Below are positions 7,585 to 48,927 of a stretch of DNA of 64,000 bases, in pieces (positions within the stretch are counted from its first letter, which is position 1; each line of letters opens with the position of its first letter). The stretch lies in assembly GCF_927798175.1 (NCBI RefSeq), contig NZ_CAKMMP010000003.1, forward strand, positions 451,114 through 515,113, given 5' to 3'. The notes under the pieces are model-generated. The model searched no databases, was not told the DNA's origin, and saw only the letters and a program-made list of their open reading frames with translations. The DNA comes from Paenibacillus sp. JJ-223 (GTDB lineage: Bacteria; Bacillota; Bacilli; Paenibacillales; Paenibacillaceae). The position numbers and the translations under genes are program-made.

Positions 7585-7712
7585 TAGGCTCTGTTTTCTT
7601 TGGATGTTGATTTTTGGTAAAAACCGCTCACTTGCTCTGATTACAGAACAAATGTTCGTGGATATCAAATATCACCACAAGGATTATACATAGCCTTTCT
7701 TTATGATGCTTT

Positions 7713-33590: not shown

Positions 33591-33810
33591 ATGAATATCC
33601 CCTCTCTTTGCTCGTTTGGATACAACTCTATTTTTCCAGATGCTTGGGCAATATGCAAATGTTGCTACGAATGATCCCGAATTGGTCTGGACAGGGACAA
33701 TTCTGTTACGTATTTATACGTGGATCTGTGTCCAAGGGCTTAGTATAGATGCTGATAAGAAGGACATTTCAACCATTTTTGGCGTTTATGCCTGTAGGCT
33801 GAAAAGGAGT

Positions 33811-33825
33811 ATGTTAATATAACAT
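33811..33825 (+). promoter_or_regulatory. Palindrome in the control region of the MoxR-VWA operon
   Basis: ATGTTA-ATA-TAACAT is a perfect palindrome, followed by a looser ACATA...TATGT pair at 33834-33851. It lies about 45 bases before the AAA gene and overlaps the likely -10 area, so it may be an operator. The regulator is unknown. Confidence 0.35.
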
Positions 33826-33870
33826 CAATAAGAACATACGATCTGTTATGTGAGAGGAGAAAGCTTCACG

Positions 33871-34971
33871 ATGGAAATGATTAAACCACCGGCCGAGACA
33901 TTGTACGAGGAGCAGCTGCGTGCACTGCGGGAAGAAGACAAGGGCAAGCGGCCTCCAAATTGGCTGTTATCGCCTGTGCATGTGCGGGACTTCATCATTG
34001 GGCGCGACGAGCCGGCGGTGCTGGACGGCAAGCAGGTGCCGATTACGCGAAAATTTTACGGCAACGACGTGCTGATCGAGCGGGCCGTGGTGACGCTGGC
34101 GGGAAACCGGGGGCTTATGCTGGTCGGGGAACCGGGAACGGCCAAAACGATGCTGAGCGAGCTGTTGACCGCAGCCATTTCAGGCACCAGCCTGAACACC
34201 ATTCAAGGTACGGCCGGCACGACGGAGGACATGATCAAGTACTCGTGGAACTACGCGATGCTGCTTGATAAAGGACCTTCGGAAGCCGCGCTCGTGCCAT
34301 CCCCGTTGTATAACGGTATGAAAAAAGGCATCCTGACCCGTTTCGAGGAAATTACGCGTTGTCCTTCGGAAGCGCAGGATAGCCTGATCAGCATACTCAG
34401 CGACAAGGTCATGAGCATTCCTGAACTGGATGGCGGAGTATTGTTCGCCAAACCGGGCTTCAACGTGATCGCCACCGCGAACATCCGGGACAAAGGCGTT
34501 AACGAAATGAGCGGCGCGCTGAAGCGCCGATTCAACTTTGAAACGATCAAGCCGATCAACAGCGTGAAGATGGAAGCCAAAATCATCGAATCCCAGGCAC
34601 GCAGCCTGCTGATGCATAGCGGCATCGAGGCAGAAATCAATACCGACGTGGTGGAACTGCTCGCGACGACCTTCATGGAGCTTCGCACGGGCATGAGCCG
34701 CGAAGGGTACAAGCTGGACACGCCGCAGGCTTCCATGAGCACGGCCGAAGCGGTATCCGTTTATGTGCAGAGCGCGATGACATCCCATTATTATGAAGGG
34801 AAGGACATTGCGCTCGACCGGCTGGTGCAGAACATGCTGGGTACGATCGCCAAGGAAAACGACAAGGACTTGTCCGTGCTCAAAACGTATTTTTCCAAGG
34901 TGGTCAAGGAGCGTTCCAAGGATGAAGGCATTTGGAAGCAGTATTATGAGGAGAAAAAATGGATCGGGTAA
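33871..34971 (+). CDS. MoxR-type AAA+ ATPase (YehL-like)
   Basis: A 366-residue AAA+ protein from ATG 33871, behind GAGAGGAGA. Walker A is GEPGTAKT at 86-93. The Walker B position reads ILTRFEEITR, with Glu-Glu instead of the usual Asp-Glu. Sensor 1 is VIATANIRDKG, and ALKRRF supplies the arginine-finger region. The C-terminal lid domain follows. The family pairs with VWA proteins and remodels or loads cofactors into partners. It is the first gene of the six-gene operon and overlaps the DUF5682 gene by 13 bases, indicating translational coupling. It resembles E. coli YehL in size and partners. Confidence 0.92.
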   Translation: MEMIKPPAETLYEEQLRALREEDKGKRPPNWLLSPVHVRDFIIGRDEPAVLDGKQVPITRKFYGNDVLIERAVVTLAGNRGLMLVGEPGTAKTMLSELLTAAISGTSLNTIQGTAGTTEDMIKYSWNYAMLLDKGPSEAALVPSPLYNGMKKGILTRFEEITRCPSEAQDSLISILSDKVMSIPELDGGVLFAKPGFNVIATANIRDKGVNEMSGALKRRFNFETIKPINSVKMEAKIIESQARSLLMHSGIEAEINTDVVELLATTFMELRTGMSREGYKLDTPQASMSTAEAVSVYVQSAMTSHYYEGKDIALDRLVQNMLGTIAKENDKDLSVLKTYFSKVVKERSKDEGIWKQYYEEKKWIG

Positions 34972-37358
34972 ACGCCGCGTCCGGCTTGGACATGGATGAG
35001 CTGCTGCGTCTGTTTGACACCAGCGTGTTCAATACGGACGGCGGAACCTTGTATTTTCCAGTGAGGCATCACAGTCCTGCTTGTTCCTACCATTTATTGA
35101 AGCTGATTGATTTGTATAAGCCGGATATGATCCTGATCGAAGGCCCGGAAAGCGGAAACCCGCTGCTTGGCGTCCTGGCAGACGAAGCAACAGTTCCTCC
35201 GGTCAGCCTGTATTATACGTACGAAAATGAAGACGGCAGAGATGCTTGCTATTATCCCATGCTGCGTTATTCTCCGGAGTACGTGGCCATCAGGGAGGCA
35301 GCCAGGCGCGGCATCCCGGCCCGTTTCATCGATCTGGATTACCACCACCTGGCCGGAACGCAAACCTCGGAGCGAAGGGAAGTCTCGGGCCAGGATGAAA
35401 CATTGCTCGCCGGATCGGAGTTTATTCAGCGCTTGTGTCAAAAGGCGAATTGCCGCAGCTTTGACGAGCTTTGGGAGAAAGTGTTCGAGATCGGCGGTTT
35501 GGCCAAAACGACGCGCGAATTTGTGCTGGACGTATTTACGTACTGCACATGTTCTAGAATGTGCTATACGCCGAGCCAGCTGCTGGCATCCGGCGATTTG
35601 GCAAGGGAAGCCCGGATGCGCGAACACATCGCGGAAGCCGCCGGCGCATATGAACGGGTGCTGGTGATTACGGGAGGATTTCATACCTATGGCTTGCTCA
35701 TAGAGCCAGCAGCCGCACCGGGCGGCGGAGCATCACATCAAGATACGTTACCTCAGACAGCTCCCGTATCGCATCAGATTTACCCAATGGTTTATACCTA
35801 TGCAGAGGCGGATCGGTTGAACGGTTATGCCAGCGGCATGCCTTTCGTCAGCTATTATGAATGGATCTGGGAACATTTGCAGCGAAAGAAAAACCGCCCA
35901 TACGAACGAGTCGCCGTCGATTTGCTGGCCAAACTGACGCGCAAACTGCGGAGTCGCGATGAACATGTGTCCACAAGCGACGCCATTGAAGCGTATCGCA
36001 TGATTCAGGATCTGGCGGCGCTGCGAGGCAAAACGGAAGGCGGGGTCTATGAGCTCATGGACGCGGCGTTGTCCGCCTTTATCAAGGGCGAGCTTACGCT
36101 CGCGACGGAACAGCCTATGAAAGAACTGCAGCAATTGCTGACCGGAGATGCCATCGGCACTGTGGCACCGAATCCTTTCAGCGTTCCGATCGTTGAAGAC
36201 TTTAAAGCTTGGTGCAAAGAGCTAAAACTCCAGATCGGAACGACGGGCCAGCATAAAAAGGTGTTGGATCTGTATGCGAAAAAGGAACATCGCCGATTAA
36301 GCCAGCTCTTTCAATGCGTTACATACTTGGTGCCGCATTTCGCGGAGCGGCAATCCGGTCCGGATTGGGTTGCCCGGCGCGACATGAACCTGGTTCGTGA
36401 GACTTGGGTCTATGCGTATTCATCACGCGTTGAAGCCCGTTTGATTGAAAGCTCGCTCTATGGAGGCACGCTTCGCGAGGCGGCAGCCCGCAAAATGGAA
36501 GAAGAGATGCAGGGCATTCCCGATCATCACAGCGGAGAGCTTGCCCAGCGCATGCTGCGTGCCCTGTTGATGGGGCTGCAGGATACCGCCGAACGGTTAT
36601 ACAGTCAGGTACGCGCCGCTTTGCGCAAAGACGGCCATTTCCTTTCTTTATGCGACAGCCTGCACACGCTGAACCGGATTCGTCAGCATCGCCACTTGCT
36701 CGGAATTGCAAATGATGACAGGCTGCGATTGCTGGTGGTGGAGGCATATCGAAATGCGGTGGACAAGCTGCCGCAGCTAGCCCATACGAACCAGGACGAG
36801 CACGCTGCCATCATTCAGGGATTGAAGCTGTTATCGATGCTGGCGGACTCGGCCGAACAGCCATTCGAGGACGAAACGTTCCGTTCCTACTTGAACGATC
36901 TGCTTATGGATCAGGGACTTCCCCCTCAATTGGAAGGGGTCTGCGTTGCCATATCCTCCGGGCTCGGCGACAGGCCAAAGCAGGAAATTACCCAGCGCGC
37001 TCGGTCTTATATTCGCGGTACACCGGAGCAAATGCTGCAAACCGCGCTGTATTTGCAAGGTGTTTTTGCGATTTCGCGCGATGCATTCCTGTATGAAGAT
37101 GAGCTGTTGCAGGAATTGAACTATTTGGTGGCGCAGCTGCCTACGGAGGATTTTATCGGCATGGTTCCCGAATTGCGCCTGGCCTTTACGTTTTTTACGC
37201 CGATGGAAGTTGCGTTGATTGCGGAACGGGTAGCCGGCCTCTTCCAAGTTCAGGTGGACGAGCTTTCCCTTCCCGCTATGGACGAAAGAGTGCTGGTACA
37301 GGCAAAGGCTTGGGATGAAGCGATCCGAAAGGAGTTTGAGGCATGGAAACTGATCTGA
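34959..37358 (+). CDS. DUF5682 family protein (YehM-like)
   Basis: A 799-residue protein with the family start VFNTDGGTLYFPVRHHSPACSYHL (RHHSPAC at 36-42), then MILIEGPESGNPLL near 57-70 and VLVITGGFHTYGLL near 233-246. These conserved His, Glu and GGFH positions look enzymatic and recall the EreA/ChaN/TIKI group of folds, an inference only. The C-terminal 450 residues are mostly helical repeats. No signal peptide or membrane segment. ATG 34959 sits inside the end of the AAA gene, and its own end overlaps the VWA start by 16 bases. Function not known. Confidence 0.88.
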   Translation: MDRVNAASGLDMDELLRLFDTSVFNTDGGTLYFPVRHHSPACSYHLLKLIDLYKPDMILIEGPESGNPLLGVLADEATVPPVSLYYTYENEDGRDACYYPMLRYSPEYVAIREAARRGIPARFIDLDYHHLAGTQTSERREVSGQDETLLAGSEFIQRLCQKANCRSFDELWEKVFEIGGLAKTTREFVLDVFTYCTCSRMCYTPSQLLASGDLAREARMREHIAEAAGAYERVLVITGGFHTYGLLIEPAAAPGGGASHQDTLPQTAPVSHQIYPMVYTYAEADRLNGYASGMPFVSYYEWIWEHLQRKKNRPYERVAVDLLAKLTRKLRSRDEHVSTSDAIEAYRMIQDLAALRGKTEGGVYELMDAALSAFIKGELTLATEQPMKELQQLLTGDAIGTVAPNPFSVPIVEDFKAWCKELKLQIGTTGQHKKVLDLYAKKEHRRLSQLFQCVTYLVPHFAERQSGPDWVARRDMNLVRETWVYAYSSRVEARLIESSLYGGTLREAAARKMEEEMQGIPDHHSGELAQRMLRALLMGLQDTAERLYSQVRAALRKDGHFLSLCDSLHTLNRIRQHRHLLGIANDDRLRLLVVEAYRNAVDKLPQLAHTNQDEHAAIIQGLKLLSMLADSAEQPFEDETFRSYLNDLLMDQGLPPQLEGVCVAISSGLGDRPKQEITQRARSYIRGTPEQMLQTALYLQGVFAISRDAFLYEDELLQELNYLVAQLPTEDFIGMVPELRLAFTFFTPMEVALIAERVAGLFQVQVDELSLPAMDERVLVQAKAWDEAIRKEFEAWKLI

Positions 37359-38521
37359 ATATGCATGAAGCCGCTGGCGAGTCGGCGAAACGCAGTTCAT
37401 CGGAAGCGCTCAATCGCTGGCGATTGATCCTCGGAGAATCGGCGAGCGAAGGTTTATGCCAGGCTGACGGCTTTGACGAGCAGCATTTCCAATATAACGA
37501 AGTGGATGAAATACTGGACTATTTATACAGCCGCGAATACGGGGAAGATCAGGGCTATCGGCAAGAAGGGGGCCGAGGTCCTTCCAATCTGACGGTACCC
37601 AAATGGCTGCATAAGGTTCGGAAGCTGTTTCCGAAACAGACGGTCGAGATTTTGGAAAAACAGGCATTGGACCGTTACGGACTCACCGAACTGTTGACGG
37701 ACAAAAAATTGCTTGAGTCGCTTGAACCCAATATGGGCTTGCTCAAAAACATTATGCAGTTCAAAGGCCGCATGAAGGGCGAGGTGTTGAAAAGCGCCAA
37801 AGAGATCGTGCGGCAAGTCGTGGAAGACTTGCGCAGAAAACTGGAGTCGCAAACGCGCGCCAGCATTATGGGCAAACGCTCGCGATATGCACATAGCCCG
37901 GTTCGCTCGCTGCGCAATCTGAACTTCAAGCGAACGGTGACCAAAAACCTGAAAAACGTCGATCGCGTCAATCGAAGGTTCATCATAGACCGGTTGTATT
38001 TCGACGGCAATATTCAACCGCACAATAAGTGGAACGTGATCATCGGCGTGGACGAAAGCGGCAGCATGCTGGACTCGGTAATCTACAGTTCAGTGATGGC
38101 GAGCATTTTTTACCGGCTCAATGCGCTGCGCACCAAATTGTTCATTTTCGATACCCAAGTTGTTGATCTCAGCGACCGGCTCGACGATCCGGTGGATCTG
38201 TTAATGAACGTGCAGCTTGGCGGGGGCACGCATATTGCCAAAGCACTGCGTTATGGTGAAACGTTGATCGATAACCCCGGAAAAACGATTTACATCCTCG
38301 TCAGCGATCTGGAGGAAGGTTATCCGATCCAGCACATGTATAAAGCTTGCAAAGATATTCTGGATTCGGGCTGCAAGCTGCTGGTGCTGACGGCGCTTGA
38401 TTTCAACGGGGACTCCGTCTACAACAAACATGCAGCCCAGACACTCGTCAATATGGGGGCGCACGTTGCCGCCATTACGCCCAACGAGCTGGCAGATTGG
38501 ATCGGAGAGATCATAAGTTGA
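37343..38521 (+). CDS. VWA domain protein (YehP-like)
   Basis: A 392-residue protein: a helical N-terminal domain (about 20-220) containing LNRWRLILGESASEGLC and SNLTVPKW, then a von Willebrand A domain from about 230. The MIDAS metal site is intact: DESGS at 237-241, T296 in LGGGTHI, and SDLEEG near 323. The layout strongly resembles E. coli YehP. VWA proteins of this kind bind substrates or partners for MoxR ATPases (compare RavA-ViaA and NorQ-NorD). Start ATG 37343 overlaps the end of the DUF5682 gene. Confidence 0.92.
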   Translation: METDLNMHEAAGESAKRSSSEALNRWRLILGESASEGLCQADGFDEQHFQYNEVDEILDYLYSREYGEDQGYRQEGGRGPSNLTVPKWLHKVRKLFPKQTVEILEKQALDRYGLTELLTDKKLLESLEPNMGLLKNIMQFKGRMKGEVLKSAKEIVRQVVEDLRRKLESQTRASIMGKRSRYAHSPVRSLRNLNFKRTVTKNLKNVDRVNRRFIIDRLYFDGNIQPHNKWNVIIGVDESGSMLDSVIYSSVMASIFYRLNALRTKLFIFDTQVVDLSDRLDDPVDLLMNVQLGGGTHIAKALRYGETLIDNPGKTIYILVSDLEEGYPIQHMYKACKDILDSGCKLLVLTALDFNGDSVYNKHAAQTLVNMGAHVAAITPNELADWIGEIIS

Positions 38522-38585
38522 ATGGGTCCAATTTATATAACCTTGTTTGGATGAACCATAGCTACACATTTTAAAGGAGGCATGT

Positions 38586-41500
38586 ATGATGTTAACCGCA
38601 GATCGTGCATTGGAGGCCTTGATCGAAAAATTCGCCACCGAGTGTTCGCGGGAATACTCGGTACAAACGGACCGAAGCGGCTCCATCTATGACTATATTA
38701 TGGGCAATACCGACGAATTTCCGGATATGTTGGGCAAATCGAGCCACTATGCATATTTCAGCATGGAAACGCTCATGAAAATTGGTAAAAGGGATGCGGG
38801 GGACGTCTTTTTCCGTGCCGGCTCCATTCTCATTCATCTGGAGTCCCGATACTCCCGAAATTCGTGGAGACAGGATGCCTTTTCCGTTTGTCTTGGCGAA
38901 GATGCCAACGCGTACGGATTGGGAGGCAAGACCAAAGGCAAAGATCGGATGGGGCCTGTTATTGCCCGTCTGGACAAAATTCGTGCATTTGCAGGCGAGC
39001 GCGAAATCGTGGATGAGTTGAAAAGCAGGCTGGGAGCGATTCAGACCCATCTGAAACAAAAGAAAGCCAATCGATCCAACAGCTGTTATGACATCGTAAA
39101 CGCGCTTCTTTTGCTCCGTGCCTATGCCGGCCTGAATGGCGATGCACAGCACGGCGCACAGGTTCAGCTGTTCCATCAAGGTTTGCCGGAACTGTTCCAA
39201 GCGGTCTTCGCGGGAAATGTTTCCGAGCTTCGTACGCTTTTGCACCGGATGTGCGAACCGCTCGTGGTCGGCTACATGCAGACGAAGGACAATCGATCAT
39301 GGTATGAGCTGGATCATGAATACCTTGAATCCAAACGCAAGCAACTCATCGATGAAAAGTATGCGGATACGGTTTTGCGGGAAAAAGATCGGGTATCTGC
39401 CGGCGATTTCCATTCCACGCTGCTGCTGATCAGCAGCGCTTTGTTATACGTGATCAACATCCAAGGGGGAAAGAACGCATTTCTAGAGCATCAAGACGAG
39501 CTGAGCCTCGTTTTGCTTGAGTCGATGCGAGAACTGCACGAAATCTATCCTCTGGAGGTGCGTCAATACCTGCTCGCGATGGATTACCGCGCGAAAAACG
39601 TGGATGAGCTGCTGAGCGGCTTGGTCCCGACGGACGAGCCTTATCAGCTGATCGAGCAGCTGCGCACGGATCTGTACAGTTATTTTGTGCCGTGGCAGTC
39701 GCTGGAAGCCGCCGTGTTGGCCGACACTGAGCGGGCAAAGCGCACGTATGCGCTCTCGCGCTCTGCTTATTTCAAATTATATATTCACTACGTGCTTGAA
39801 AAGCATGATATTTCGCTACCGTCCGGATCGGGAACGATCGAAGAAGCCGTCTTCGCCGCACTGGCCCATCCAACGGACGGAGGCCGGTACGGTCTGAACA
39901 TGTCCCGTTATTTGAAAGGGGAAACCTCGCTCGAGGATTATTGGAAAGACAACTTGAATCTCGGGTTGTTCACCCATTTGAACCGGGATGCCAAACGTAT
40001 TGCCAACCTGATTGCAATTACGTTCCTGCCGGTACGTTCCGAAGCGATGCGGCGGTTTGCCATCCTGATTTCCCGTCCCCAAACCGGGACGTTGGAGGCT
40101 TTGTCCGATCTCTACTCCTCCTATGCGTTCAGTGGAGAGAAGCTGCTTGATGCGTACAGCAACGATCCGGACGTGGACGATGAAAACCTGCTTTCGAGCT
40201 TGCTTCAATTGAACGGCATTCGTGAATACAGCTACCGATCGATGCCTCAGGATGAATATACCCGGATCATCGGAAACCATCTGGATGCTGCATTCAAGCA
40301 GTACAAAAACCTGCCTGCAGAAACGCGCCAGCTTGCGCTGGAAATTGCGTTTGCGGAAGATCAAGAGCTTTCGGTCGAGCAGTTGTCGCAGGCGCTTCGG
40401 TTGGGACTTCAGGATTCGTCCAAAAAAGCCAATGCGCTCGCCACGTCGCGCTTCAACCGCACGCCGGATGCGGAGCTGTACATTCACATCTATCGTGCGG
40501 AGAAAAAGGCCGGCATCAAGGAAATGGTGTTGAACGCCATTCGCGGGCTGCCTGATCCCAAAACGGCCTATCAAACGCTTCTACAAAGCGAGAAATCCGC
40601 AGAGTGGAAAGCATTGATTCAAATTCTGCTGGATACCGCCGATTTGAGCCCGGTACATGCCCATGCCGCGCTGGCAGACCAAGCCGATGCCAAAAAAGTA
40701 TCCCGTTTGAACTGGCTGTCGTTGAAGGATCTGCCTGATCTTATGGATCACGAAGGAACGCCGCTCGATGAACGAATCAAAAAATATGTACTGCTTCAGT
40801 CCATGGACTATACGGCCGCCCCGAATGAAAGCTTGAATGAAGTACGTACCTATGCCACCGTGGAATCGCTCTCCCGTTTCGCCGTTGAATTGCTGCAGCT
40901 TTGGATTCAGGAAGGGGCGCCTGCCAAAGAAAAATGGGTAATGTATCTGTCCGTGCTGTTCGGCGATTTGCAGCTCGTTGCCATTTTCAAGCGTCAAATC
41001 AAGGAATGGACCGAGTCGAGCCGGGGAGCTATTGCCGCCGATGCGGTCAGAGTATTGGCTTATTTGAAGGCTCCTGCCGCTCTAATGGCGATCGATTCGA
41101 TCAAACGTACGGTGAAAAATCGCCAGGTCAAGGGCTCCGCTGAGGAAGCGCTGCTGCTGGCCGCCGAAAATATGGGACTGACGACGGAGCAGCTGGAGGA
41201 TCGGCTGGTTACTTCACTCGGTTTTGACGAAAAAGGGACGCAGCGGCTCAGTTATGGCGAACGCAGCTTCTTGATCAAGGTGAACAGCGATTTGCAGCTT
41301 GCGGTATGGAACGAAGAAACCGGAAAATCGGTCAAATCGCTGCCCGCGCCTGCGCAAAAAGACGATCCGGAACTTGCGGCCAAGGCGAAAGCCAGCTTTG
41401 CCCAATTGAAGAAAGACCTTAAAGCCATGGTCACCATACAGTCTCAACGTTTGGAGGAATCGTTGTCCAAGCAGCGTCTGTGGACGGCGGAGGAGTGGAA

Positions 41501-42143
41501 AAACCTGTTCGTCGATAACGTGATCATGCAAAAGTTTGCGGTAGGCTTAATTTGGGGCGTGTATGAGGACAATGAACTTGCAGCAACCTTCCGCTATATG
41601 GAAGACGGCACGTTTAATACGGTGGATGAAGACGAATATGAATTGGACCCTGCCTTCAAGGTTGGTCTGGTTCATCCGCTTGAATTGGAGGCATCCGACA
41701 TTGCCGCATGGAAGACGCAGCTGGAGGATTACGAGATCAGCCAGCCGTTCGCCCAGCTTGAACGCGAGATTCATGTTGTGGACGAGGAAGATCAGGCGAA
41801 GAGCGAATATGATCGTCTGCCGGAGTCAGACCTTTCACCAACGGCGTTTCCGAAAGCTTTGGAGAAATACGGCTGGATCAAGGGGCCTGCCATGGATGGC
41901 GGTTGGTTTAACGAATTTTACAAAGAATACGGCGAGCTTGTTGCAGAGCTGCGATTCAGCGGTACAAGCATTACGTATTATGAAGGAATGGAAGACATTA
42001 CGCTCGAATCCCTGATTTTCTTTAACCCAGGGAACCAGAAACAATATTATTACAGCGACCACAAAGCGATTTCTTTGGGCAAGGTCCCGGGGCGCGTGTT
42101 CAGTGAAACGTTGTATGACATCTTGAGAGCATCGGGGCGCTGA
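38586..42143 (+). CDS. Giant DUF4132/DUF5724 protein (YehI-like)
   Basis: An 1185-residue protein, among the longest in the window. The N-terminal 700 residues form helical, HEAT-like material. The C-terminal third bears the DUF4132 block: a W-containing beta segment FAVGLIWGVYEDNELAATFRYMEDG, then VGLVHPLELEASDIAAWK and the QPFAQLEREIH motif, near 970-1060. E. coli YehI has nearly the same length. No signal peptide or transmembrane segment. AAAGGAGG precedes ATG 38586; the second ATG at 38589 is equally possible. It is separated by 64 bases from the VWA gene and by 4 from the SWIM gene. Function unknown. Confidence 0.88.
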   Translation: MMLTADRALEALIEKFATECSREYSVQTDRSGSIYDYIMGNTDEFPDMLGKSSHYAYFSMETLMKIGKRDAGDVFFRAGSILIHLESRYSRNSWRQDAFSVCLGEDANAYGLGGKTKGKDRMGPVIARLDKIRAFAGEREIVDELKSRLGAIQTHLKQKKANRSNSCYDIVNALLLLRAYAGLNGDAQHGAQVQLFHQGLPELFQAVFAGNVSELRTLLHRMCEPLVVGYMQTKDNRSWYELDHEYLESKRKQLIDEKYADTVLREKDRVSAGDFHSTLLLISSALLYVINIQGGKNAFLEHQDELSLVLLESMRELHEIYPLEVRQYLLAMDYRAKNVDELLSGLVPTDEPYQLIEQLRTDLYSYFVPWQSLEAAVLADTERAKRTYALSRSAYFKLYIHYVLEKHDISLPSGSGTIEEAVFAALAHPTDGGRYGLNMSRYLKGETSLEDYWKDNLNLGLFTHLNRDAKRIANLIAITFLPVRSEAMRRFAILISRPQTGTLEALSDLYSSYAFSGEKLLDAYSNDPDVDDENLLSSLLQLNGIREYSYRSMPQDEYTRIIGNHLDAAFKQYKNLPAETRQLALEIAFAEDQELSVEQLSQALRLGLQDSSKKANALATSRFNRTPDAELYIHIYRAEKKAGIKEMVLNAIRGLPDPKTAYQTLLQSEKSAEWKALIQILLDTADLSPVHAHAALADQADAKKVSRLNWLSLKDLPDLMDHEGTPLDERIKKYVLLQSMDYTAAPNESLNEVRTYATVESLSRFAVELLQLWIQEGAPAKEKWVMYLSVLFGDLQLVAIFKRQIKEWTESSRGAIAADAVRVLAYLKAPAALMAIDSIKRTVKNRQVKGSAEEALLLAAENMGLTTEQLEDRLVTSLGFDEKGTQRLSYGERSFLIKVNSDLQLAVWNEETGKSVKSLPAPAQKDDPELAAKAKASFAQLKKDLKAMVTIQSQRLEESLSKQRLWTAEEWKNLFVDNVIMQKFAVGLIWGVYEDNELAATFRYMEDGTFNTVDEDEYELDPAFKVGLVHPLELEASDIAAWKTQLEDYEISQPFAQLEREIHVVDEEDQAKSEYDRLPESDLSPTAFPKALEKYGWIKGPAMDGGWFNEFYKEYGELVAELRFSGTSITYYEGMEDITLESLIFFNPGNQKQYYYSDHKAISLGKVPGRVFSETLYDILRASGR

Positions 42144-42147
42144 TTAC

Positions 42148-43950
42148 GTGACGTCATTTGAACGGAAATTTCAGGCATTCGCCGAGCTTTGTACCGAAGA
42201 TTATTTGATCCGCCATGCCAATAAAGGATTGTACAAGCGTTCCTTGAAGGACATTGCCCAAGGCGTGAGTGTGCAGTACGAATGGGGAGAGACGGCCGTA
42301 ACGTGCCATCTGGGCGACGGCATCACGTGCACCTTGGAAAGCACCTTGGATCACTGGAACTGCTCATGCCCTTCGGATCATTTGTGCAAACATGTGTTGA
42401 TCTCCATTTTGTTTTACCAACAGACGCATGCCGCAGCCGAGGTGCCTGCCGATAAAGCACATAACGTTAATCCGGAACAGGCCTTGACGGAGGCGGAATC
42501 CGGATCGGTTAAGACTCATGTGGCGACTGACGGGGCTGATCGTGAGGATGCTGCTGCCCCGGAAGCCCGGTCGCGATCCCGGTTCGAATGGATGCTGCAC
42601 GCCGACTTGCTTGCTTTGATCCGATCGTACAGTGCCTCTGCCCTGGAAGAAGTCATGTTCCGCCTGAGTTATCCCGAAGACATTGAAGTCATTCATGACT
42701 CCTTGCTCACGGTGCGGCTTGTTCGGCAAAACATCGAAGTCTCTTTCACAGAAGAGCCTGGTTTAAGCAAAGCGCTATGTAAGGTGAAACAGGCTGCCGG
42801 GAATATGGCCAAACTGGAAGCATTGCTTCGTTATCGGAAGAAGCACGGACTTCACGATGCGGACACGCTTGGCGGAAAGGCATATGAAGCTAAATTCTCG
42901 CTGGAGACGGTCAAAGAGTGTCGTCGCATGTTAGCTGAAATGTTACGGGTAGGGTTAGCTCGCTTGCCAGAATCGTACATGGCCCAGCTCGAAACGTTGG
43001 CGATCACAGCCCACAGCGGCAATCTGCCGGATATCGAACGCAGTTTGCGAGGAATCCAGGGGGAACTTCAGCTTTTTCTGACCAGGCATATTCGTTTCTC
43101 CATGCCAACCATGCTTGATCGGGTCACGAAGCTGTACCTTGCTCTGCAGGTATTGGAACAGAAGCAGGTATCCACCATGCAGCAAAGCCAGCTGATCGGC
43201 AGCTTTCGCAGCAAGTATTATACAGTCCCTGATCTGCATCTATATGGACTTGGGGCAGATGCTTGGGAGACGCAGTCGGGTTATCGGGGGATCACGTACT
43301 ATTTTTACGGGCTGCAGGACCAGCAAATGTATACCTTCAGCGACGTTCGCGCCGTATATTACGAGCAACAGCAATTCCAGTTCGACGATCATTACCGTTC
43401 GACGATACCGTGGCTGCCCAACGTAAGCTTCCGGGAATTTGCAGGCGAAGAGCTGTGTTTCCACGGGATTAAGGTCAACGAAGATCGCAGACTCTCATCC
43501 GGAGAGGGAGCCAAGCTGAAACTGTTGACACGAAGGCCGGTAGAAGAGATGGATTTTGGCCCCCTTGCACAAGAGTTTTCTGCCCTTTCGGGTAGTGGAG
43601 GGCCAAGATCATATCAACTGTTCTCCATGCCTCAGGAGCAGCTTGCTCTGGTAAAAGTCACCCGTGTTTTCGATCAAGCCTATGACAAACAGAAGCAAGA
43701 GCTGACGCTTACGGTAGAGAGCGATCGCGGAGAACTGCTTGATCTGTCGTTTCCTTACGACAAGGATTGGAGCACGATGATCAGCCGTTTGGAATCCGGG
43801 CATGGCATCGCCAAGCTGGAACATTTCCTCGTATTTATGCGTGTCGAGGCCGGACGCTTGCGTCCCATCAGTTTTCTGAAAGGGCAGCAGGTGATCAACC
43901 TGAAGCTGGATGCCGGTTATGGAAGGATGGGACGGTTTGCAAGAATATAA
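42148..43950 (+). CDS. SWIM zinc-finger protein (YehQ-like)
   Basis: A 600-residue protein from a GTG start. The SWIM motif CxCx5CxH is complete in WNCSCPSDHLCKHVL (C72, C74, C80, H82), after an N-terminal region (RSLKDIAQGVSVQYEWG) that matches such fingers in bacteria. The rest has mixed helices and beta strands with no familiar domain. SWIM fingers bind DNA, RNA or proteins. It starts four bases after the DUF4132 stop, so is surely cotranscribed, and its end is overlapped by the sixth gene. It corresponds to YehQ in the E. coli group. Confidence 0.88.
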   Translation: MTSFERKFQAFAELCTEDYLIRHANKGLYKRSLKDIAQGVSVQYEWGETAVTCHLGDGITCTLESTLDHWNCSCPSDHLCKHVLISILFYQQTHAAAEVPADKAHNVNPEQALTEAESGSVKTHVATDGADREDAAAPEARSRSRFEWMLHADLLALIRSYSASALEEVMFRLSYPEDIEVIHDSLLTVRLVRQNIEVSFTEEPGLSKALCKVKQAAGNMAKLEALLRYRKKHGLHDADTLGGKAYEAKFSLETVKECRRMLAEMLRVGLARLPESYMAQLETLAITAHSGNLPDIERSLRGIQGELQLFLTRHIRFSMPTMLDRVTKLYLALQVLEQKQVSTMQQSQLIGSFRSKYYTVPDLHLYGLGADAWETQSGYRGITYYFYGLQDQQMYTFSDVRAVYYEQQQFQFDDHYRSTIPWLPNVSFREFAGEELCFHGIKVNEDRRLSSGEGAKLKLLTRRPVEEMDFGPLAQEFSALSGSGGPRSYQLFSMPQEQLALVKVTRVFDQAYDKQKQELTLTVESDRGELLDLSFPYDKDWSTMISRLESGHGIAKLEHFLVFMRVEAGRLRPISFLKGQQVINLKLDAGYGRMGRFARI

Positions 43951-44224
43951 TGCCATATTGGAACGAATCCAAAGCTGGGGTGAAGAAATGCTGCTGCGGG
44001 GACTGACCCAATTCAGCATGAAGGATGTTGACGTACTGGAAGCGATTCTTGAACAGGTAAAGCGCTTTGAGGCGTCTTTCCTGCAAGAGTTAGTGGGTCA
44101 CCTCGTGGATCAGGGGAGGAAAATGGCGCTGGGTGATGGCGATGAGGTTCAGCTCCTGGATCTGTATTGCCGCATCACCCAATATGTGAGACTTGGATTG
44201 CAAGAGCCATCCTCGTACAAATAG
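43910..44224 (+). CDS. Small helical protein, last gene of the MoxR-VWA operon
   Basis: Up to 104 residues, without any domain I recognise. It seems all-helical, with two amphipathic stretches (MKDVDVLEAILEQVKRFEASFL and GDEVQLLDLYCRITQYVRLGL). The start is ATG 43910 or ATG 43919; both lie inside the SWIM gene's end, an overlap of 32-41 bases, and neither has a strong ribosome site, so coupling is likely. It lies before the operon terminator and may be a dedicated partner of the SWIM or DUF4132 protein. I recall no such gene in the E. coli group. Confidence 0.7.
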   Translation: MPVMEGWDGLQEYNAILERIQSWGEEMLLRGLTQFSMKDVDVLEAILEQVKRFEASFLQELVGHLVDQGRKMALGDGDEVQLLDLYCRITQYVRLGLQEPSSYK

Positions 44225-44232
44225 GCAGGATC

Positions 44233-44272
44233 AAAGATTTGCAGGGGATGACTCCTCTGTAAATCTTTTTTT
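44233..44272 (+). terminator. Intrinsic terminator of the six-gene operon
   Basis: AAAGATTTGCAG pairs with CTGTAAATCTTT (one G-U), followed by TTTTTTT. Confidence 0.85.
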
Positions 44273-44358
44273 GTTGGCATTAAGTAAATTCGAGGTTTCA
44301 TTCGTATATAAAGTGAATTCGGTTTGAGCATTTAACCCTATAAGAAAGGAGGCTCACG

Positions 44359-44901
44359 ATGTCAGATCAGAACATACGGGATGCCATCGTCAGGCGTGAT
44401 GCAAATGTGATGGAAACCCTGATGAACGAATACTCCGGTCTGCTGTGGAACGTGGTACGGTCCATTTTGCGGTTAGCACCTGAAGAAGAAGTGGAGGAGT
44501 GTGTGGCAGACACCTTTTTTGCGTTTTGGCAAAACCCGGATGCATATGACCCCGAGAGAAGTTCATTGAAAAATTACTTGGCGATGGTGGCCAAACGCAA
44601 AGCGATTGACCGTTATCGTAAGTTGATGCGAGCCAAAGAGGCCAAATATGAGGAGCAAACTCATTTTCAGTCCAGCCCGGACGTGCTTACTCAAGTCATC
44701 CGTCAAGAAAATCGGGAAGAACTGGAACAAATGATAGACCTTTTTCCGGAACCCGACCGGGAAATTATGAAACGCCGATTATATGACGGTCAGAAGCCCG
44801 GCGAAATATCGGAATCCATGTCTTTGCAGCTTAGACAGGTACATAACAAGCTATACCGTTCCAAACAGCGACTCCGCACTTGGTGGGAAAATCGAAAATA
44901 A
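44359..44901 (+). CDS. ECF-type sigma-70 family sigma factor
   Basis: A 180-residue sigma factor with region 2 near residues 22-90 (LLWNVVRSILRLAPEEEVEECVADTFFAFWQ, then SLKNYLAMVAKRKAIDRYRK) and region 4 near 120-175 (LFPEPDREIMKRRLYDGQKPGEISESMSL, RQVHNKLYRSKQRLR). No region 3. Its gene is followed, 16 bases later, by that of a membrane protein of the DUF4179 type, a common ECF/anti-sigma pairing. The ATG follows AAAGGAGGCTCACG. The target genes are unknown; autoregulation is usual but I could not identify a convincing -35/-10 pair. Confidence 0.9.
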   Translation: MSDQNIRDAIVRRDANVMETLMNEYSGLLWNVVRSILRLAPEEEVEECVADTFFAFWQNPDAYDPERSSLKNYLAMVAKRKAIDRYRKLMRAKEAKYEEQTHFQSSPDVLTQVIRQENREELEQMIDLFPEPDREIMKRRLYDGQKPGEISESMSLQLRQVHNKLYRSKQRLRTWWENRK

Positions 44902-44917
44902 AGGAGGTGTGATTTTC

Positions 44918-46294
44918 ATGTCCAATCCGAATCAACCATTCACCGCACGTAACCTGGCAAACATCAAACGAAGGTTTTATGAAAAAACCGATGAGGCCGG
45001 ATTGTTACCCGACAAGCCCCATAAACAACAAGAGCCGACCCTCCGCCGAACGCGAATGCGCAAAGCCGTATCTATCCCCATCGTCGCGATCCTTTCGATC
45101 GGCGTACTTACTGGAGCCGCGGCGGCCATGAACATCGTTGATCTGTCAGCCGTTCTGCATTTCCTGGACAAAAGCCGTTTGGACATCTTGTCTCCCGTAA
45201 ACCGTTCCAGCGAGGATCAAGGCATCCGCATGGATATACTGGGTGCGGTTCGCGATGGAGATACAGCTGAAATATATGTCGCCCTTACAGATCTAACAGG
45301 CCATCGGGTAACCGATACGCTCGATGTCTATGATTTCCGTGTGACTGGTGGTAGAGCAAACAACGCGCAGTTGGTCCATTACGATGAAAAAACCAAAAAG
45401 GCCATTGTGCGATTCCTGGTTCAAGGAGAACATCTCAAAGACCGAATTACGGTTAAGATCAGTTCTTTCCTGACTGGTGCACAAACGAATGAAGATATTG
45501 ACGTGGATTTGAACTGGTCCGCATTGTTGGAACAACAAACAGAAGACTCCATCATTACTCTGGATCATCAAGAGGGGGAGATTAGCGGCATCGGCGGGCA
45601 GCAATATGAGGAAATCACGAGTCAATCCTCGATCCCTGTACTTAAGCCAGATCAAATGCATATTCCCGTGCCGGGCCTGGAGTGGATGTATATCTCCAAC
45701 GTAGGAATGGTTAATGGCAAACTGCATATTCAGATCAATCCAGATGCTGAAATGGGTACCTATAATCATGGCTATTTTTACTTTGTGGACGATCAGGGGC
45801 AGGAGCAGGATGTTCCCTTGTCTTCCATCAGCTATGGCTCCTATGAAAAAGACGGCGTTCGAATGGGTGGGGATTATGAGGAGTATATTTTCGATATTCC
45901 GGATATTCGCGAGCTCCAGCGCCTTCATTTGAAAGGAAAGTTCACCAGTTACGATGCATTCGTGAAGGGAACGTGGAAGACCACGTTTGATTTGAAGCAG
46001 AGCACCGTCAAAAAAAAGGCAAGGCTCCAGCATGCCTCTACTCATTCAAATTCAGGGCCCTTGAACGTGGAAGTCTCTGAATTAGGTGTGACGCTTACAG
46101 GGGACTTATCTGAAATCGATTCGGAGCGCCTCGATCTGCGAATTGTTATACAGGACGGAACAACCATTGAGGCCGATTCAGGGTTTGTGCAGTTGGATCA
46201 GGAAATCGTCAAATGGATCTCAACCGAAACGATCCCCGTGAGCCACGTTAGGGAGCTTATTTTGAACGGAATATCCGTTCCGCTGCACGATTAA
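44918..46294 (+). CDS. DUF4179-type membrane anti-sigma factor
   Basis: A 458-residue protein from ATG 44918 (AAGGAGGTGTGATTTTC before it). The short cytosolic N-terminus (about 1-48) is followed by one membrane segment (SIPIVAILSIGVLTGAAAAM near 52-71) and a long extracytoplasmic part of beta-sandwich type, beginning with the DUF4179-like MDILGAVRDGDTAEIYVALTDLTG. This order is that of anti-sigma factors which hold their ECF partner at the membrane until a signal arrives. The RxHxx zinc anti-sigma motif is not seen. Confidence 0.8.
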   Translation: MSNPNQPFTARNLANIKRRFYEKTDEAGLLPDKPHKQQEPTLRRTRMRKAVSIPIVAILSIGVLTGAAAAMNIVDLSAVLHFLDKSRLDILSPVNRSSEDQGIRMDILGAVRDGDTAEIYVALTDLTGHRVTDTLDVYDFRVTGGRANNAQLVHYDEKTKKAIVRFLVQGEHLKDRITVKISSFLTGAQTNEDIDVDLNWSALLEQQTEDSIITLDHQEGEISGIGGQQYEEITSQSSIPVLKPDQMHIPVPGLEWMYISNVGMVNGKLHIQINPDAEMGTYNHGYFYFVDDQGQEQDVPLSSISYGSYEKDGVRMGGDYEEYIFDIPDIRELQRLHLKGKFTSYDAFVKGTWKTTFDLKQSTVKKKARLQHASTHSNSGPLNVEVSELGVTLTGDLSEIDSERLDLRIVIQDGTTIEADSGFVQLDQEIVKWISTETIPVSHVRELILNGISVPLHD

Positions 46295-46392: not shown

Positions 46393-48927
46393 ATGTCCAT
46401 GAGCGAACCGCTATTGATTCAAATTGTGAATGAACAGCTCCCGGCAGGAGCCACGATGGTCATGATCGAGAAACCGGTCAAACACCCGGCTGTCTATGCG
46501 GCAGACCTTACCGGGGACGGCTCGCCGGAAATTGCGGCCGTATATGAGCAGGACGGGCAGCTGATGCTGCTTGTATTGACGTTTATCGCAGGCAAGTGGG
46601 TTAAAATGTCCTTGACGAAAGGCATGGGCTATGGCGTTACGCTTCTTACAGCCGCACAAGTTACTTCCACGGCACGAAACAACTTGATCGTAGGATGGCA
46701 GATCGGAGCGATCTGGTCCAAATTGTCCGTCTATGAATGGACCGAATCCGGACTGACGGATCTCGCGCCAGAGGACATGGTCTACAGCATGGCTGAAATT
46801 ATGGATATGCCTGGCCAACACGGAAGAGATGGAAAAGCCGAAATCGCATTATGGGTGCATGATACCGGAGAGGCATACCGAGTAGATGTCGTTCGCTGGG
46901 ATCACCAGCACTGGGTATCGGCCCCGGACATCTACCCGTATTACTTTCCAAAAGTGGTCCAATATTATGAACAGTTGGTACGCCAGCATCCGGATTATCC
47001 GTTCTATTGGAGTTATTTGGCGGAAGCGCAGTATCGGGCGGGGTTATGGCATGCAGCGCTTATTTCGGTACAAAAGGCCCTTAGCTTCGATCAGCCTTAT
47101 CCTTCGAGAGCGGCGCTTCTGGCACTGGAGCAACAGATTAAACAAGCGGTTGGCCATCATGGCCACCATGAGCGTGCATTGACGTGGCTGTATCCCGTTT
47201 CGGTCCGGACGACCAACGGTACCAAGTGGGGATATATGGACGCTGACGGGCGTATCCGCTTGGAACCCGTGCTCGATCGGGCGGAGGCTTTCCAACCCAA
47301 CGGGTTGGCCGTCGTTGAGAGTCGTGGCAAAGCCGGAATAATCGATCTTCAGGGGCGGTTTGTTGTTCAACCGGTTTATGATTCGATCTATCCTTTTTCG
47401 GAAGGCCGGGCAAATGCCATTGACGCCCAAGGCTTTAACATGATCGATGAACAAGGACGCGTGCTCACTTCCAGAGCCTATCCGTATATCGGCGATTTGC
47501 AGGATGGCCGGGCTGTATTTTACGAATCCATTCAAGGCCAAGCGAATACGAGCGAGATTCGTTACGGTTATCTGGATGCATCCGGTCAAGTCGCCATTCT
47601 GGCCCAATTTATGGCTGCGGGTGATTTCCAACAAGGTAAAGCTGTCGTTCAGACGAAAGAACGGGAATACGCCCTGATCGATCAACGTGGACACAAATTG
47701 GCCGTGTATCCATACGCCTATGTCGGACCGCTTGGAGAAGGGCTGCTTTCGTTTCAGCAGGAATTGTCCGGTCCTTACGGTTACATCGACGAACAGGGGC
47801 GCATCCGCATCGAGCCCAAATTCAATACGGCATTTCCTTTTAAAAACGGGCGTGCCATCGTAAGCATTGCAGAAGATTCCAATTGGAAGTATGGCGTCAT
47901 TGACCCGCAGGGGGTATATATCGTCCAGCCTTCGTATAACGACATTCGGGATTTGGGTGAACACCGGCTTGCGCTGGGCAAAGCGATCAAGGCGGAAGAA
48001 CCGTTTCTTGGCTCCGTTTATGCGATTGCAAATGCGGATGGCCGCAGGCTAACCAAGTTTGTGTATACGGGCGTGGAGGATTACAAGCATGGGCTTGCTT
48101 CCGTAACCGACGGCAAACATACCTTTCTGATCCAACTGAACGGCCAGCCGGCCGAGGGATATCCACGTGTTGAAGGAGCCGGAACGCTGGAGGTATTGGA
48201 GCCTGATCTCATCCGGGTGTTCGTCCAGCAACGCTTGTCTTATGTGAACAGGGCAGGGCAGACCATTTGGAAGCAAAATACCGTCGTTCCGCTTCGCCCG
48301 CCGTTTCGCGTCGTGGAGCGGCAGTTCAATCCGAATCCGGACTACTTTGTGTATTACCCGCAGGTCGAAGGCTTTTCGAGTCCTGCCGTTGAAAAGGACG
48401 TCAATACCAAACTCAAAGCGATGTCCGGGATAAAACCGATTCCTTCTGACCAGAAGCTTGATTATAGTTATACGGGCGATTTCGACATCACCTTTTATCA
48501 ATATAAGCTCCTGCAGCTGCAGCTTACCGGTTACAATTATCCGTTTGGCGCCGCTCATGGCATGCCGACCATGGTCTACGCCATCATCAATCTCGATACC
48601 GGGGAAATGTATGAACTGAAGGATCTATTTAAACCAGGCAGCGATTATGTCAAGGTACTCAGCGACATCGTTGGTGAACAGATTAAAAATGATCCGCAAT
48701 ATTCGTATGTGTTTCCCGATACGTATAAGGGCATCCGTCCCGATCAGCCGTTTTTTGTTACTGCGGACGCGCTCCATGTTTATTTTGCGCCTTACGAAAT
48801 TGCCCCATATGCGGCGGGATTCCCGACCTTCACGATTCCATTCGCGCAGATCCGTGAGATCATTGATACCGAGGGCTCGTTTTGGAGAGCTTTTCACGCG
48901 CCGGAACCGACGCTGTATCATCCATAA
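46393..48927 (+). CDS. WG-repeat protein with a C-terminal DUF3298/RsiV-like domain
   Basis: An 844-residue protein. Residues 1-130 form an FG-GAP-like start (AADLTGDGSPEIAAVYEQDG). From about 270 to 600 there are at least six WG (KWG) repeats such as YGYIDEQGRIRIEPKFNTAF and YGVIDPQGVYIVQPSYNDI. The last 200 residues (TGDFDITFYQYKLLQLQ... GAAHGMPTMVYAIINLDTGEMYELKDLF) match the DUF3298 domain. There is no obvious signal peptide, so its location is unclear. It begins 98 bases after the anti-sigma gene and may belong to the same regulon. Function unknown; binding or envelope sensing is inferred. Confidence 0.85.
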   Translation: MSMSEPLLIQIVNEQLPAGATMVMIEKPVKHPAVYAADLTGDGSPEIAAVYEQDGQLMLLVLTFIAGKWVKMSLTKGMGYGVTLLTAAQVTSTARNNLIVGWQIGAIWSKLSVYEWTESGLTDLAPEDMVYSMAEIMDMPGQHGRDGKAEIALWVHDTGEAYRVDVVRWDHQHWVSAPDIYPYYFPKVVQYYEQLVRQHPDYPFYWSYLAEAQYRAGLWHAALISVQKALSFDQPYPSRAALLALEQQIKQAVGHHGHHERALTWLYPVSVRTTNGTKWGYMDADGRIRLEPVLDRAEAFQPNGLAVVESRGKAGIIDLQGRFVVQPVYDSIYPFSEGRANAIDAQGFNMIDEQGRVLTSRAYPYIGDLQDGRAVFYESIQGQANTSEIRYGYLDASGQVAILAQFMAAGDFQQGKAVVQTKEREYALIDQRGHKLAVYPYAYVGPLGEGLLSFQQELSGPYGYIDEQGRIRIEPKFNTAFPFKNGRAIVSIAEDSNWKYGVIDPQGVYIVQPSYNDIRDLGEHRLALGKAIKAEEPFLGSVYAIANADGRRLTKFVYTGVEDYKHGLASVTDGKHTFLIQLNGQPAEGYPRVEGAGTLEVLEPDLIRVFVQQRLSYVNRAGQTIWKQNTVVPLRPPFRVVERQFNPNPDYFVYYPQVEGFSSPAVEKDVNTKLKAMSGIKPIPSDQKLDYSYTGDFDITFYQYKLLQLQLTGYNYPFGAAHGMPTMVYAIINLDTGEMYELKDLFKPGSDYVKVLSDIVGEQIKNDPQYSYVFPDTYKGIRPDQPFFVTADALHVYFAPYEIAPYAAGFPTFTIPFAQIREIIDTEGSFWRAFHAPEPTLYHP

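Follow-up and report, generated by a model that had tools for sequence, protein, structure and literature searches.

The 64,000-nucleotide stretch of Paenibacillus sp. JJ-223 analysed here (the window; contig NZ_CAKMMP010000003.1, positions 451,114 to 515,113) contains a run of six genes encoding a MoxR AAA+ ATPase, a DUF5682 protein, a VWA protein, a DUF4132 protein, a SWIM zinc-finger protein and a small helical protein (Table 1). A sequence-only reading of this stretch had described six unidirectional genes with short overlaps and one 4-base gap, and this layout was borne out: the genes overlap by 13, 16 and 41 bases or are separated by 4 bases and, at the VWA/DUF4132 junction, by a 64-base gap that had gone unmentioned. 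The single terminator placed at the end of the run was supported by a hairpin at 44233-44268 followed by a T run, with a folding z-score of -3.9 and none of 200 shuffled sequences equally stable. The six genes may form one transcript. A consensus scan detected no sigma-70-type match upstream of the first gene and a weak sigma-70-like match at 38563-38590, around the 64-base gap upstream of the DUF4132 gene; such matches were no commoner than in shuffled sequences (6 versus 9.2). No NCBIfam equivalog scored above its cut-off for the operon proteins.

Table 1. Genes, predicted domain, terminator and upstream elements of the operon (window coordinates)
Feature	Position	Strand	Evidence
Upstream element GGACRTTTCAACCATTTTT, conserved, putative activator site	33762..33780	+	shared by 24 of the 27 Paenibacillus upstream regions (counting the window)
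Conserved box GAACATACGATCTGTT, predicted operator	33832..33847	+	16 bases, 39 bases before moxR ATG
MoxR AAA+ ATPase (AAA_5), YehL group	33871..34971	+	PF07728 E 2.4e-35
DUF5682 protein (YehM homologue), TraB/Tiki-like N-domain and helical C-terminal part	34959..37358	+	PF18934 E 1.3e-101
Predicted TraB/Tiki-fold domain of DUF5682 protein, residues 28-250	35040..35708	+	motifs PVRHHSP, LIEGP, RExxM, TGGFH
VWA_CoxE protein (YehP homologue), MIDAS-type motifs	37343..38521	+	PF05762 E 1.1e-41; DESGS, GGGT, SDLEE
DUF4132 protein (YehI homologue), HEAT-type solenoid predicted for residues 1-870, C-terminal mixed domain	38586..42143	+	PF13569 E 9e-50
SWIM zinc-finger protein (YehQ homologue)	42148..43950	+	CxCx5CxH motif; YehQ-family hhalign E 4e-12
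Small helical protein, 104 aa	43910..44224	+	in 32 of 34 loci; coding substitution pattern
Intrinsic terminator	44233..44275	+	hairpin 44233-44268 and T run

To examine the conservation of the operon, species genomes were scanned for the window DUF5682 protein; the 55 pattern matches yielded 34 loci (26 in Paenibacillus and 8 in Brevibacillus). The MoxR, DUF5682, VWA, DUF4132 and SWIM genes had the same order and strand in all 34 loci, and the small gene was present in 32 of them. Of the 26 Paenibacillus loci, 24 had a homologue of the same P450 gene upstream on the opposite strand and 25 had the WG-repeat gene downstream, indicating that the locus was inherited in place in this genus.

Comparison with E. 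coli by blastp gave identities of 48%, 24%, 42%, 28% and 28% to YehL, YehM, YehP, YehQ and YehI, respectively, with the YehQ match covering 85 residues and the YehI match 430; a profile comparison of the SWIM protein with the YehQ family extended over 462 columns. The comparison with this E. coli set, made in the sequence-only reading, is supported. The E. coli genes yehL-yehM-yehP-yehQ, together with yehI (DUF4132) and yehF (WGR), include the same five families as the window, and the order MoxR-DUF5682-VWA is common to both. In E. coli, however, the DUF4132 gene lies upstream and is accompanied by a second, broken copy (the yehH pseudogene), the SWIM gene directly follows the VWA gene, YehQ carries two CxC...CxH motifs, and no match to the 104-aa gene was found.

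Since the DUF5682 query favours the window's own lineage, other lineages were sampled. We annotated 43 loci with hidden Markov models: a second operon of the same genome, the E. coli locus, 4 loci from a phylum search, 16 plasmid records and 1 phage scaffold (both taken from 37 matching records), and 20 family genomes picked from 103 with a match. All 43 were selected for DUF5682, except the phage scaffold, which was selected for VWA. A VWA gene was found in all 43 loci, MoxR in 42 (the exception being a 5.8-kb contig) and a SWIM match in 38. DUF5682 was rare in a phylum sample, with scores above the cut-off in 5 of 299 genomes, as against 102 of 197 family genomes. DUF4132 was found in 7 of the 299 phylum genomes at 9 places, 6 of which lacked MoxR, VWA and DUF5682 in the fetched stretch. 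The company of MoxR, DUF5682 and VWA was fixed; DUF4132 also occurred apart from it. Among the DUF4132 stretches without the other genes (L092, L094 and L097-L100), four had the domain within long open frames (1,662 to 1,734 aa).

The second operon of the same genome (contig C4:241520-249722, minus strand; L032 11520-19722) encodes, in order, a SWIM protein, a HEAT protein, MoxR, DUF5682 and VWA. It shares the MoxR, DUF5682, VWA and SWIM families and the core order MoxR-DUF5682-VWA with the window operon (lineage A), but it has a HEAT protein in place of DUF4132, and its SWIM gene comes first (lineage B). Assignment of this protein to DUF5691 was not supported, with E values of 0.27 by hhalign and 0.17 by hmmsearch. 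By hhalign it lies closer to DUF4132 (E 9e-5), and it was therefore named HEAT. The two solenoid types never occurred together in any of the 43 loci, and the A/B split was congruent. DUF5682 and VWA were joined in a single Streptomyces protein, and SWIM and DUF5691 in a Hymenobacter protein (L120), which corresponds to two overlapping genes in a sister locus (L129); the DUF5682 annotation of that sister is split into three pieces. A Nocardia locus (L128) with SWIM and DUF5691 in one open frame (2125 residues between stops) was not counted as a fusion. Likewise, the phage scaffold MT835988 (L125), which carries MoxR, DUF5682 and VWA, is unannotated and unverified and was not counted as a phage system. 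PHROGs families matched five of the six operon proteins.

The window MoxR contains the Walker A sequence GEPGTAKT, is 48% identical to YehL over 361 residues, and fell on the lineage A side of the MoxR tree together with YehL (support 100/100). The Walker B motif of AAA+ ATPases is usually Asp-Glu, whereas all 40 MoxR sequences examined have Glu-Glu at this place; since YehL is among them, Glu-Glu is a trait of the YehL group and does not exclude the window protein from it. A YehL subfamily of MoxR has already been named in the literature (PMC3893208). All 35 VWA matches spanning over 300 residues carried DxSGS, and GGGT and SDLEE were seen in the window protein, in keeping with the metal ion-dependent adhesion site (MIDAS) pattern DxSxS...T...D. 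The Walker motifs of MoxR and the MIDAS of VWA are predictions from sequence. A sequence search of the PDB returned only Midasin for MoxR (E 0.001), a single designed protein for DUF5682 (E 0.015, in its helical part), and no relatives other than designed repeat proteins for the VWA, DUF4132 and SWIM proteins.

The AlphaFold2 model of the DUF5682 protein (predicted local distance difference test score, pLDDT, 85.6) has a long helical C-terminal part; its nearest relative, 98% identical, is labelled Paenibacillus hubeiensis. From the model and the sequence, the N-domain is predicted to adopt a TraB/Tiki fold and appears to share the common fold of the TraB/Tiki/ChaN superfamily. The hallmark of this superfamily is two GxxH motifs and a conserved Glu. 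In the DUF5682 alignment, the His and Glu residues and the second GxxH were present in 42 of 42 sequences, and the Gly of the first motif in 29 of 42, with Pro in the window protein. H37, E61 and H242, which have YehM counterparts, are predicted to form an active site and would bind the metal. A Foldseek search with the model gave no significant match. The likeness to TraB/PrgY, Tiki and ChaN would lie in the predicted fold, the two His motifs, the first with its variable Gly, and the Glu; unlike these proteins, DUF5682 has the long helical part and the constant company of MoxR and VWA. Metal-dependent proteases are among the relatives of this fold (PMC12329661). With the predicted fold, DUF5682 is likelier to be an enzyme or a metal client than a featureless partner.

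The DUF4132 protein (model pLDDT 88.2) is predicted from its model, and from HEAT_2 matches in 21 of 41 relatives, to form a HEAT-type solenoid over residues 1-870. For the SWIM protein, the Pfam match was below the cut-off (13.2 versus 19.6 bits), but the zinc-finger motif was unvarying in 21 of 21 aligned sequences. The small open reading frame showed 910, 468 and 1234 changes at codon positions 1, 2 and 3 (23 loci, ungapped matches, overlap left out), a pattern indicating that it is coding; no function was found for it.

We propose that the products form a single machine driven by ATP: a MoxR ring and VWA would activate DUF5682 as a TraB/Tiki-fold hydrolase that would be held on its target by DUF4132 and SWIM. 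We give this reading a probability of roughly 0.4. In NorQ-NorD, the VWA protein inserts a finger into the central pore of the hexameric MoxR ring, and its linker is placed under ATP-driven force, which allows metal to be inserted into the client (PMC13036017); an active client requires the MIDAS residues, whereas binding to the ring does not (PMC9976466). By analogy, the VWA finger would sit in the pore of the window's MoxR ring, and the ATP-driven pull on the linker would insert metal into a client or open it. The client would be DUF5682 itself, with its conserved His and Glu binding the metal, and the solenoid and the SWIM protein would pick the target and bring DUF5682 to it. The fixed company of MoxR, DUF5682 and VWA and the joined proteins support one machine, as the sequence-only reading had supposed, and the DUF5682-VWA and SWIM-DUF5691 proteins fit its two proposed halves. 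That reading had the ATPase and VWA act on either DUF4132 or DUF5682; here the roles of the two were corrected, DUF5682 being the likelier client and DUF4132 an exchangeable predicted solenoid that is also found without the machine.

Under a different reading of the same fold, DUF5682 would be a ChaN-like metal or haem carrier, used by MoxR and VWA as a cofactor donor for an unlinked client, as in NorQD and CoxDE. ChaN, a haem-binding member of the Tiki superfamily, was the most frequent weak Pfam match among DUF5682 members (8 of 44), the VWA protein belongs to the CoxE family, and MoxR/VWA pairs are established cofactor-insertion chaperones (PMC13036017, PMC3893208). We nevertheless consider a carrier rather unlikely, given that E107, D125 and R216, conserved in addition to the two His, would be compatible with an active centre and that no further recurrent gene, such as one for a metalloenzyme, lay beside the machine in 10 annotated records, except in two sister Hymenobacter plasmids; a client may, however, be encoded elsewhere in the genome. 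The toxin-like conflict role that had been suggested earlier gained little support. As a system against phages or other invaders, with DUF5682 as effector peptidase, the operon would resemble the MoxR-VWA ternary systems with peptidase parts that have been proposed as conflict systems (PMC7159879), and several features are in keeping with this: the patchy presence of DUF5682 in the family, a plasmid copy (L116) near restriction-modification genes and transposases, and the bpMoxR Pfam score of the lineage B MoxR of the same genome, which exceeds the cut-off (28.1 versus 27 bits; the window MoxR, at 20 bits, does not). However, PADLOC models (library of 2023) gave no match for any of the six proteins at E 0.1, the Paenibacillus flanks are kept, and 5171 of the 5426 E. 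coli genomes carry yehL, at chromosomal places in 5181 of 5183 cases, which speaks for a core function; a conflict role is thus quite unlikely. That the genes are co-transcribed housekeeping genes without a common complex would account for DUF4132 apart from the machine, but it is very unlikely in view of the same company in Bacillota, Pseudomonadota, Actinomycetota, Deinococcota, Bacteroidota and Fusobacteriota records, the joined proteins, the occurrence of at most one solenoid type per locus and the congruent split.

A role in the DNA-damage response, in which the DUF4132 side would mark a machine acting on nucleoprotein targets after genotoxic stress, was suggested by WGR, a PARP-associated domain. 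WGR is fused to DUF4132 in one locus (L117), and yehF, encoding a PF05406 (WGR) protein, lies near the E. coli operon. In D. radiodurans, DRA0166 (DUF4132) and DR2173 (WGR) were up after mitomycin C in the wild type and not in the irrE mutant, and according to the same paper MolR was earlier described as a LexA-regulon member (PMC8533742). The window DUF4132, however, has no Pfam match to WGR, and SOS control was rejected for Paenibacillus: the box conserved upstream of the operon deviates from the LexA consensus in its right half-site, with GATC for GTTC in all 27 Paenibacillus copies, whereas the recA match in the same genome is preceded at 76 bases by a near-canonical LexA-type site, CGAATGTATGTTCG. 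The consensus used was of the B. subtilis type; with two mismatches allowed, it gave 1351 and 1396 matches in the own genome versus 1273 and 1310 for the control, which is near background. In the E. coli region there was no exact LexA site, and one-mismatch sites were at chance level (10 versus 8). We regard a damage response as decidedly improbable; the induced D. radiodurans proteins and the WGR that accompanies lineage A in some bacteria make the damage link a lead only. One of the one-mismatch E. coli sites lies directly before yehF (L067 1450-1465), and AGAACAAATGTTCG at window positions 7645-7658 is a single mismatch from the LexA-type consensus.

The proposed machine resembles NorQ-NorD, RavA-ViaA and CbbQ-CbbO in that a MoxR ATPase is encoded with a MIDAS-bearing VWA protein, and differs from them in the YehL group of its MoxR, the Glu-Glu Walker B and the constant DUF5682, SWIM and solenoid proteins. 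It is also like the MoxR-vWA ternary conflict systems (Kaur et al. 2020, PMC7159879) in having MoxR, VWA and a third, multi-domain component. The third components of those systems are VMAP, iSTAND, FtsH or beta-propeller proteins, none of which was among the Pfam matches of the six proteins, although some may have no Pfam model; the available text of that paper makes no mention of SWIM, YehL or WGR. In the literature searched, whose coverage left out most subscription journals, we found no role for yehL, yehM, yehP or yehQ (among the matches listed, all four names occur in a genome announcement, PMC10652928, and two of them in one other paper), no mention of DUF5682, no paper on SWIM, MoxR and TraB together and, among the matches listed, no mention of DUF5691. 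We file the gene set as a variant of MoxR-VWA systems not previously recognised. A bolder formulation, which we think unlikely, is that it represents a new class of ATP-powered metallo-hydrolase with unfoldase-protease logic, in which a YehL-type ring with Glu-Glu Walker B and a VWA gate would drive a TraB/Tiki-fold peptidase. The SWIM finger and a swappable HEAT solenoid, which would be DUF4132 for lineage A and HEAT/DUF5691 for lineage B, would serve as targeting arm, and two separate copies could serve different targets in one Paenibacillus cell. If the proposed machine is right, a TraB/Tiki-fold enzyme would join the clients of MoxR-VWA pairs, and DUF5682, along with DUF4132 and DUF5691 in this setting, would gain a role as machine parts. 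The predicted active site, the five-part module and the two solenoid lineages make this operon, whose ATPase gene yehL is nearly universal in E. coli, directly testable.

Dedicated control of the operon had been expected from a palindrome at 33811 (33811-33825), which was present in the window alone among 35 upstream regions and was rejected as an operator. Of the earlier observation, the gene run and the terminator were upheld and the palindrome was not, and dedicated control instead finds support in the conserved box. An exact copy of GAACATACGATCTGTT was found in 25 of the 27 Paenibacillus upstream regions, and the remaining 2 had a copy with one base changed; the distance to the ATG was 39-42 bases. 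The box or a near form occurred in 26 of 197 family genomes. Of 23 same-genus genomes, 21 had exactly one copy, each followed 1.25-1.36 kb further on by a DUF5682 match in the lineage A score range (gene content was read for G000 and G066 alone); it was absent from the other two, one genome without DUF5682 and one with lineage B. In other genera of the family, 5 genomes had the box: in G394 a DUF5682 match followed after 1.4 kb, whereas the other four copies were not near such a match. This distribution points to GAACATACGATCTGTT as a predicted dedicated operator of the operon in this genus. With a single exact copy per same-genus genome, the box was rejected as a regulon element; two-mismatch copies in the own genome were viewed only for their position relative to open frames.

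Just past the terminator, at 44359-46294, lie a gene for an extracytoplasmic function (ECF)-type sigma factor, with Pfam matches to Sigma70_r2 and r4_2, and a second gene that overlaps it and may encode its anti-sigma partner. A sigma gene was found at the same place in 10 of the 34 related loci, suggesting that it is likely an optional insert. The downstream gene whose place is kept in Paenibacillus encodes the WG-repeat-like protein at 46393-48927, which was named from its own sequence.

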